Below are positions 44,507 through 46,862 of a DNA stretch of 64,000 bases, piece after piece. The DNA comes from Globodera rostochiensis (lineage: Eukaryota; Nematoda; Chromadorea; Rhabditida; Heteroderidae). The translations under genes were made by a program, and so were the position numbers. The stretch lies in the NCBI GenBank assembly GCA_018350325.1, contig JAEVLN010000007.1, forward strand, positions 2,347,856 to 2,411,855, given 5' to 3'. Numbering within the stretch: the first letter of the stretch is position 1; each line of letters begins with the position of its first letter. Below the pieces are notes generated by a model that worked only from the letters and a program-made list of their open reading frames with translations, was not told where the DNA came from and did not search any database.

Positions 44507-46862
44507 CTAAATGCCATCGGCGGTAATGTTGAATTTAAAATTTGGGCCAAAATTCGCTTCAATTTTAGTGCCAGCATCGAACAACGTAACGCACGGAAAC
44601 AAATCGGCGGCCGAATCGACACAAAAACCGGCAGTTCCTGCAAAAAAAAACAAAAATATAACAAAATAAATTAATTAAAAGATTTAAATGCAAAAATATT
44701 TTATGCATCCACAAAATCACTAAAGCTAAAACTATTAGGACTTAAATAACATCTCACCCAAACGCTGTCCATTTTTTGTGTAAATGATTTGGCGAGTTGC
44801 CAAATTGACGCCGCAGCCGATGACGTCACCGATGCCAAACGAAGGCTTTCCATCAATTAAAGGACGCCCAACGTGGCGGGAACATCCGTCCACCGCGTGA
44901 GCCCAAAATATGCCACTGCTTCCGTATGAGTAAGTGCCTTTGTAATTTCCAACCCATCCATCCAATGGCATTTGTTTGGTGGCGAGTCCAATGTGAACAT
45001 AGCTAAATATAATGTTTTTAAAGGAAAATGCTTTTAAAGCATTTCAAAGTTCAACTATTTATTTATTTAACTTACTCTCCTTTCTCCAAGATGGTCACTT
45101 CGTAGTAGAAAATGCCGAATTTTCCTTTTGGAATTGACCTTTCAGTCCGGACAGAGCGCTTCCCTGAAAAAAAAGTTAAAACTCTTTTCATAAACCGTTT
45201 AATCAAATCTTTTTAACACAATAATATTTACTATACGTTCGTTCTCTCCCATTAATTGGACAATCAATCGGTCGGGCTCAATGAGAATGAGGTCCTCGTG
45301 ACATGCAGCGGAATCCCATCGATTTTGAAGGGTTAGCCCTAAGGAAATATATTTATTTTCAAAAATATTAAATATCATTTCCCTTTTGTGCCGGGCATTG
45401 CAAAAAAAGTGGCAATAAATACTCCTACCGTATACCTTCTTTTAATCCCCCATGCTCTAATAATCCCCCACCCTCTAATAATCTCTCCCTTTCTGAGAAG
45501 GTTAAAAATAATTCCCCAGGGGGATTAAAAGTGGATATACGGTATATGAGTATAGCACTTTGATAGGGTAAACGGCAGGGTGACCACCTGTAAGAGCACG
45601 TCCATTAGTAGGGAATTGCAGCCGGTAAAGCTCGGGCAGAGCCCGAGCCGGATGAGAATGGTACACATAAACGCTGATGATCTCGTCTCGTGTCAACACT
45701 CGGGACGGAACTGTCAAAAGCAAAATTTAACCGAATTTTGGAGTCGGAATTATGAAAATTAGGTAGATTTGGCATTTTAAAATTCAAACTGCCAATCCAA
45801 ATTAGTGATACCAATATTCTGAGTAAAATCCTTTTGAGGGATGAGCGGAAAACGAATTTTGAAAAGTGCCGGGCCGAGCATTGCGCGTCTATTCTCCGCC
45901 GAACACTCTTCCCCATTTTGGTGGCATTTTTCGTCCACCCAGCGAAGTGCCTAAATATTTTAAGGGAAATATAAATACTAAAATTAAAATAATTTTAAGT
46001 TACGGCATTCCAAATTGCAATTTCTTCGCTGATCATCAAATCGTCACGGCCCAGAATCTCACACAATAATTTTTGATCAATTTGCAAAAACTCTTCCGAG
46101 AGGAGCAAAGCGTCCGCATTCTGGTCAATGTAATCCAAACACCGGCAAGCAAAGTCCCAAAATAATAAAATAATTAATTATGTTTAAAAAAAGAGAATAA
46201 AATTAATTTAGGATTAAAAATAAGTAACAATTTGCCCCCCACCTCTTCTCCAAGAAAGCGAGTCTGAGCAAACGCGAGAAAAACATTGTTCAGCTCCGGT
46301 ATGGGAAAGTTCAGACACGAATTGACAAGTTCGGGAAGATCATATTTTTTAGCTTAATTTAAAATTTGAACGGAAAATATAAAAAGCCCCAAAAATTTAA
46401 TGACCGGCATAAAGCACAGCGATTGCATTGTCCCCGTTCAGTCCGCTCAAATCGTCCACATAAATAAAGCTGAGCATCGCCTTGAACGCCCCCACCTCCA
46501 CGTCCGGCACCTCCATGGGTTTAGTCTCTTTCGAAGGGTCTAAAAATTCATTTTCAAAATTTTTTAAATTATTTTTTCAGCTACCGGCATTTCGGGCATC
46601 AAAAGGAAACATTGCATCAAAAACGTCGGAGGCCGCCGACAGAATTAGTTTATGTGCTGGCAGAAGCTTAAAAAAATTAAAAAATTGAAATATATTAATT
46701 TAAGTAATAATTAAAATATCATTAATTAAAGTAAATGTTTCACTATTTTTCAGAACTCGCCTCCTTTTCGTCTCCTCCCCCCACCAAAAAGTGAACGTCC
46801 GCCTTATTGCCCGTGTCCAGCAAATGCTTCATCCGCCCCAGCGAAGAGTTTGCTTTTGGCAT
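44507..46862 (-). CDS. BTB-BACK-SPRY fusion protein, 469 aa, intact
   Basis: Minus-strand exons: 46862-46761, 46666-46585, 46539-46405, 46352-46243, 46156-46004, 45950-45812, 45710-45588, 45338-45237, 45163-45076, 45002-44758, 44637-44507. They sum to 1410 nt, 470 codons with stop, and every junction agrees in phase. BTB is ~10-125 (MKHLLDTGNKADVHFLVGGG, LPAHKLIL, FKAMLSFIYVDDLSGLNGDN). BACK is ~143-245 (CLDYIDQNADALLLSEEFLQ, ISEEIAIWNALRWVDEK). A linker (VYVYHSHPARALPELYRLQF) leads into SPRY ~285-465 (NRWDSAACHEDLILIEPDRL, FGIFYYEVTI, GIGDVIGCGVNLATRQIIYT, ADLFPCVTLFDAGTKIEANF). BTB-BACK normally docks on CUL3, so the SPRY domain would select a target for ubiquitination (inference). There is no signal peptide. 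Two introns are non-canonical: a GC donor after exon 1 and a GG acceptor before exon 5. Intron 7 contains a MITE. Confidence 0.8.
45428..45542 (-). mobile_element. 115-bp MITE in the BTB-to-SPRY intron, TA target
   Basis: Same length, ends (CCGTATACCTTCTTTTAATC at the left, inverted at the right), TA flanks (45426-45427, 45543-45544) and gene position as the MITE at 13216-13330. An ancestral shared insertion, not two independent ones. Confidence 0.85.

Follow-up and report, generated by a model that had tools for sequence, protein, structure and literature searches.

A candidate CUL3 adaptor of BTB-BACK-SPRY architecture in Globodera rostochiensis and the GG that precedes its fifth exon

In the cyst nematode Globodera rostochiensis, a gene on the minus strand (46862-44507) of the 64,000-nucleotide stretch of DNA analysed here, which we call the window (C67:2347856-2411855 of a 92.6-Mb assembly), joins a BTB-BACK module to a SPRY domain. 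The questions that it raises are whether such a chain can be made when the fourth intron ends in GG, and what the chain would then do. The explanation we favour, at a probability of about 0.68 and from sequence comparison, is that the gene encodes a nematode-internal CUL3 substrate adaptor with intron 4 spliced at GG. Here, the BTB-BACK half (exons 1-7), of the BTBD/KLHL type, would dimerise and dock on CUL3, and a SPRY half of the RanBPM/SPRYSEC type (exons 8-11) would bind the substrate for ubiquitination, with both halves presumably carried on a single transcript. Intron 4 would be removed between a GT donor and an acceptor reading UUUUGG, retaining a helix that the public gene model drops. 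The phase-1 intron 7 would be the meeting point at which one and the same BTB-BACK module received a SPRY cassette in some Globodera genes and a MATH cassette in others.

Gene structure and domains

Rebuilt from the sequence, the gene has 11 exons whose phases are consistent throughout, which supports reading them as one gene. With the GG acceptor at intron 4, the coding sequence comes to 1410 nt (469 aa), and we thereby reproduced the exon number, length and agreement in phase at every junction that a preliminary description of this DNA had given; the 1410-nt figure holds because the GG acceptor is used in the model. When exon 5 is begun instead at the first canonical in-frame downstream acceptor, the coding sequence is 1374 nt (457 aa), and this all-canonical-acceptor model is the public G. 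rostochiensis protein A0A914H5K7 (100% identity, 100% length). Hence, the same description's word 'intact' stands as regards an open, phase-consistent frame, though intactness depends on the GG acceptor; neither this acceptor nor the GC donor of intron 1 was mentioned there. The features, all on the minus strand and from the rebuilt gene, are as follows.

44507..46862, minus: whole BTB-BACK-SPRY gene, 11 exons; 1410 nt/469 aa (GG) or 1374 nt/457 aa (public model)
46761..46862, minus: exon 1, followed by the GC donor of intron 1
46585..46666, minus: exon 2 (BTB)
46405..46539, minus: exon 3 (BTB)
46243..46352, minus: exon 4 (end of BTB, start of BACK region)
46157..46242, minus: intron 4, GT...TTTTGG, acceptor without AG (also from the comparison of copies)
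46004..46156, minus: exon 5 (BACK) when read from the GG acceptor; begun at 46120 in the public model
46121..46156, minus: 36-nt coding segment, 12 residues of a BACK helix, retained only with the GG acceptor
45812..45950, minus: exon 6 (BACK)
45588..45710, minus: exon 7 (linker, end of BTB-BACK cassette)
45339..45587, minus: intron 7, phase 1, between the BTB-BACK and SPRY cassettes
45237..45338, minus: exon 8 (start of SPRY cassette)
45076..45163, minus: exon 9 (SPRY)
44758..45002, minus: exon 10 (SPRY)
44507..44637, minus: exon 11 (end of SPRY, stop)

The acceptor of intron 4 is GG (46158-46157), preceded by TTTT, and by eye there is no AG anywhere inside this intron. The donor of intron 1 is GC (46760-46759). 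GC donors are a known habit of Globodera, and GC/AG introns make up 3.46% in G. rostochiensis according to a paper that treats them (PMC4901422; this and all other PMC-numbered sources are cited from the parts available). The remaining splice sites are GT-AG, including those of the exon 7/8 junction (45588 to 45338), which is in phase 1.

A Pfam search of the 469-aa protein placed BTB at residues 12-122 (63.3 bits against a cut-off of 20.5), BACK at 140-238 (56.1 bits) and SPRY at 334-458 (58.9 bits against 26.3), all above cut-off, in keeping with the earlier view of a BTB-BACK module and a full SPRY domain in one gene. Without the 12-residue segment, BACK is still recognised, at 46.1 bits and with a profile start of 25; the segment adds 10 bits, and whether the first helices (3-box region) are complete depends on the acceptor. 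No further domain was found by Pfam at E up to 0.001, which leaves out the C-terminal PHR domain that defines BTBD1/2/3/6 (BTB-BACK-PHR), and an NCBIfam search gave no match. Among solved structures, the best match for BTB is BTBD6 (2vkp), and by structure comparison and alignment the BTB-BACK half resembles solved CUL3 adaptors. In fact, it shares the order of BTB and BACK, and their alignment, with the KLHL/KBTBD adaptors (BTBD6 for BTB), whereas the substrate part of such known adaptors is Kelch or PHR and here it is SPRY. By this analogy, the BTB-BACK half is probably of the CUL3 adaptor type and would dock on CUL3. The rows of the VIA-align comparison cover mostly the SPRY part and hold little information on BTB-BACK.

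The acceptor of intron 4 and its probable use

A search by similarity to exon 5 gave 173 candidate places in this genome, 150 of which were scored and 130 taken with their upstream sequence. Among these 130 copies, which include near-identical duplicates, 94 have GG before the exon, 34 have AG and 2 are aberrant (L076 and L087); 92 of the GG copies are plain, and two (L085 and L088) combine GG with an insertion of 3 bases in the exon. An exact genome-wide pattern before the same exon start found TTTYGG at 58 places and TTTYAG at 7, with 0 for both in the reversed control. At 30 loci with flanks, intron 4 ends in GG in 27, and of 228 acceptors of the other nine introns, 227 are AG (an offset of 3 or 6 bases being tolerated in seeking it). 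Moreover, 22 of the 23 GG copies for which exon 4 was found have a GT donor, giving a GT-GG pattern at a conserved exon boundary.

GG is found in 44/51 SPRY-linked, 17/29 MATH-linked and 33/50 unassigned copies, and it therefore either predates the domain swap or is spread across it. The 17 MATH-linked copies rule out that GG marks SPRY genes alone. GG is present in G. pallida too, because the models P0028 and P0090 read ..LFW before the segment and this W is TGG. We infer that AG was the ancestral state of the acceptor.

The acceptor reads TTTTGG or TTTCGG in 91 of the 92 plain GG copies and varies less than it does in the 34 AG copies. It is as though a strict tract upstream compensated for the missing A, but shared descent may account for part of this. 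Such uniformity speaks against the improbable view that GG is a defect and that the gene and its GG relatives are pseudogenes being lost. Non-AG acceptors are indeed rare, and retention of intron 4 gives a stop in 23/23 GG copies tested, by which retention itself is ruled out. However, the gene's other splice sites are regular save for the one GC donor, and exon 5, including the segment, is under constraint in nearest pairs, as detailed below.

The unlikely but more serious alternative is that the public 457-aa model is right and intron 4 ends at a cryptic AG (..GACCAG/AAT), yielding a protein without 12 BACK residues. Cryptic in-frame AGs lie 24 or 36 nt downstream, and their use would remove a BACK helix that the GG acceptor keeps; in most copies, the first 8 to 12 codons of exon 5 would become intron. 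This model is canonical GT-AG, is identical to A0A914H5K7, and has the first downstream AG in frame in 46 of 66 GG copies; in the other 20, however, that AG is out of frame. More conspicuously, the codons that it skips evolve as coding sequence. In the 62 distinct, open exon sequences to which the first 66 GG copies reduce, the ratio of nonsynonymous to synonymous differences (pN/pS, from plain Nei-Gojobori counts) is 0.27 for codons 1-8 and 0.32 for codons 1-12, versus 0.46 over the remaining codons of the exon; shifted frames give 1.3-1.4. For 31 disjoint nearest pairs, the corresponding values are 0.19, 0.20 and 0.42, and a neutral simulation of codons 1-12 in nearest pairs, run without transition bias, gave 0.99 (s.d. 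0.30; minimum 0.49 in 300 runs). The first 12 codons are free of stops in all 92 GG copies, each of which also fits a helix pattern that was derived from the family itself. Judged by these counts, the 12-residue segment is under purifying selection.

The segment is also retained elsewhere, being present in 114/114 Heterodera models that span the site when aligned pairwise, and in 113/118 (5 without) by multiple alignment. In alignment it falls on a helix of both KLHL3 and KEAP1, and while the paralogue P0019 has a confident predicted helix there, residues 130-143 of the predicted model of the public 457-aa protein are its one long BTB-BACK stretch under 50, coinciding with the missing segment. 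Taken from sequence comparison, splicing of intron 4 at GG is strongly supported. If GG is used, many public Globodera models of the family are wrong at the same place, as the segment is full in 18 of 60, partial in 26 and absent in 16 (i.e., 42 lack all or part of it).

Several observations weigh against this reading of the acceptor and the adaptor. On a tree of poor resolution, the 34 AG copies are interspersed among the GG copies (19 changes, 3 or more of them forced). Some copies have other candidate acceptors: intron 4 has an AG in its last 20 nt in 4/92 GG copies, and in 29/66 an AG lies 13-58 nt upstream. Of the two shifted-frame controls for codons 1-12 in nearest pairs (2.63 and 0.81), the second falls below 1. 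The copies were found via similarity to exon 5, which favours conserved ones, though the rest of the exon passed the same filter. As for the predicted structures, their pTM is 0.52-0.55, and in the P0019 model BTB residues 18-54 are badly modelled (under 50). Lastly, the public model of the present gene does not use the GG acceptor, and an RNA-seq-aided G. rostochiensis annotation, from which that model may come, has been described (PMC8359618).

Considering both sides, we think it fairly probable that Globodera has a working, lineage-specific class of 3' splice site, UUUYGG/G, which travelled with one homologous intron as the BTB-BACK family expanded, and that the choice between GG and the cryptic AG could be a splice switch of adaptor activity. 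A family-wide GT-GG intron, if true, would be a natural test of how independent the nematode spliceosome is of AG; work of the 1990s reportedly found that C. elegans splicing can do without it. In titles and abstracts of the literature with nematode or C. elegans terms, we found no nematode case of a GG acceptor. Known GT-GG introns, which have the same GT donor and GG acceptor as intron 4, are 6 annotated ones of about 60,000 in the fly, 5 of the 6 with a similar alternative splice (PMC4528330), and the one in human BANP, which has AG in fishes (PMC4176328). These are single introns, whereas here one homologous intron has GG in 94/130 copies of one family.

Some copies of intron 4 have features of their own. 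By eye, the introns of the AG copies L014 and L038 contain a tRNA-like, SINE-type insertion whose end, ..CCTTACAG, abuts exon 5, and the insertion seems to have supplied the AG acceptor. In L012, L013, L029 and L037, again by eye, the intron contains a second, upstream copy of the acceptor together with a decayed start of exon 5. Elsewhere, intron 2 of L034 has the single acceptor TTTTTTGT, the other 25 of 26 loci having AG.

The junction of the BTB-BACK and SPRY cassettes

A search with the 457-aa model revealed that the gene is not an isolated fusion. Among the 120 matches listed of 1124, 54 proteins by hand count have BACK, BTB and SPRY together, all from G. rostochiensis or G. pallida, and 17 further ones have BTB and SPRY without BACK. 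In the genome, a BACK exon lies at most 3.5 kb upstream on the same strand at 54/230 SPRY exon places (these lists being counts of at least, near-identical pairs included), and the lone fusion that had first been pictured gives way to a member of a large Globodera BTB-BACK-SPRY family. When the query was the BTB-BACK part of a Heterodera trifolii relative, 117 of the 120 matches listed (of 562) were from Heterodera, with MATH in 101 (hand count) and SPRY in none, an absence that holds for those lists only; the other three were from G. rostochiensis, one with SPRY. The prospect of finding the three domains on one chain in cyst-nematode proteomes thus came true for Globodera and not for the Heterodera relatives listed. 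The earlier remark that such an adaptor is little described also accords with the literature, in which we found no description of the architecture, the Globodera-BTB papers being covered in part. Variants in SPRY and in BTB/POZ genes are reported in PMC7760817, and the available parts of PMC5071358, PMC6367775, PMC11817004 and PMC6744408 hold no mention of the fusion.

The BTB-BACK-MATH proteins of Heterodera and Globodera share the same BTB-BACK module, with MATH where the present gene has SPRY. P0097, one of them, aligns with 59% of the query at 74% identity, a stretch roughly as long as exons 1-7, and from exon 8 onward the SPRY half matches SPRY-only proteins over as much as its own whole length. 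In L099, the one MATH-bearing paralogue read in DNA, the MATH exon is joined via a phase-1 intron at the matching place. A GLTxQNRW-like motif is found in 89 of 201 SPRY rows (69 BTB-bearing, 20 not), and directly before it, in rows chosen by this motif, stand BTB-BACK linkers, other mostly coil-like stretches or N-termini of the signal-peptide type. This pattern fits exon shuffling through a phase-1 intron.

That two adjacent genes, one BTB-BACK and one SPRY, were wrongly joined here is very improbable. Pieces of either kind without the other half do occur in the window and as database proteins. However, the 7/8 junction is canonical and in phase 1, AG stands at the same exon 8 start in 27/27 loci where that start was found, and dozens of annotated proteins from two species have the exon 7 linker in conserved form. 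On this conserved junction, we reject two separate genes.

As regards the history of the fusion, the 91 BTB-bearing and 110 other rows of the 201-row SPRY tree are mixed, with 25 label changes, at least 8 of them forced by starred branches, and this weakly resolved tree gives no support to a single origin of BTB-SPRY. We do not claim repeated fusion, because some of the SPRY-only rows may come from truncated gene models, as P0205 seems to.

The SPRY half has SPRYSEC-15 (8bv0) as its closest solved structure, with RanBP9/10 next best, and is 56-61% identical to Globodera SPRYSECs (SPRYSEC-15/SS15, -19 and -9, RBP-1 and RBP-4) over 94-99% of its length, bearing out its first assignment to the cyst-nematode effector type. 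It is more variable than the BTB-BACK half. The SPRYSECs have the same type of SPRY, and where the motif is matched their cassette begins at the same GLTxQNRW boundary, but they are secreted and lack BTB-BACK; the present protein carries BTB-BACK and leaves no space for a signal peptide. By a crude hydrophobicity score, four of six named SPRYSEC rows qualify as having a signal peptide. The closeness to SPRYSEC-15 could suggest an injected effector that recruits plant CUL3, which we regard as most improbable, since the BTB match starts at residue 12 and no hydrophobic N-terminal stretch is seen by eye (no signal-peptide predictor was run). SPSB (SPRY-SOCS box), which works with CUL5, and RanBP9/10 (CTLH E3) likewise hold SPRY within an E3 system, though on other scaffolds without BTB. 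Part of the SPRY proteins of G. pallida beyond the secreted minimum (299 in total, at least 37 secreted; PMC4054857, whose available part does not use the word BTB) may then be candidate CUL3 adaptors that share a SPRY pool with effectors.

Three further observations concern the cassettes. At about 40000-40020 of the window, a SPRY piece that lacks BTB-BACK seems to continue straight through TTAGGGCTAACC, which in the fusions is the acceptor and the start of exon 8, and this may be a clue to the origin of the fusion. By eye, intron 7 of the gene (45339-45587) and that of a second family member in the window (13171 onwards) share a palindromic stretch like a miniature inverted-repeat transposable element, its start common to other paralogues. 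In G. pallida, the BTB protein P0091 has a RabGAP-TBC match in place of SPRY or MATH, which may be a gene-model fusion.

Other family members in the window

By similarity, the window is part of a cluster of the BTB/SPRY family, in which the following were found besides the present gene.

11700..14311, plus: second family member (L069), matching residues 2-452 of the 457-aa protein; exon 5 (12579-12731) follows TTTTGG
24252..24978, plus: BTB-BACK family member (L088), matching residues 90-239; exon 5 follows TTTCGG and has the 3-base insertion
21-781 (minus), 1965-2546 (plus), 2715-2976 (minus) and 34754-34864 (minus): BTB or SPRY pieces, by family similarity
36626-37479 (minus), 38046-38805 (plus) and 40002-40881 (plus): BTB or SPRY pieces, by family similarity

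Elsewhere in the assembly, equal-score pairs of copies lie on two contigs, such as C8:1251004 with C23:5296827 and C8:1266709 with C23:5312579, among others, and these are possibly haplotype duplicates.
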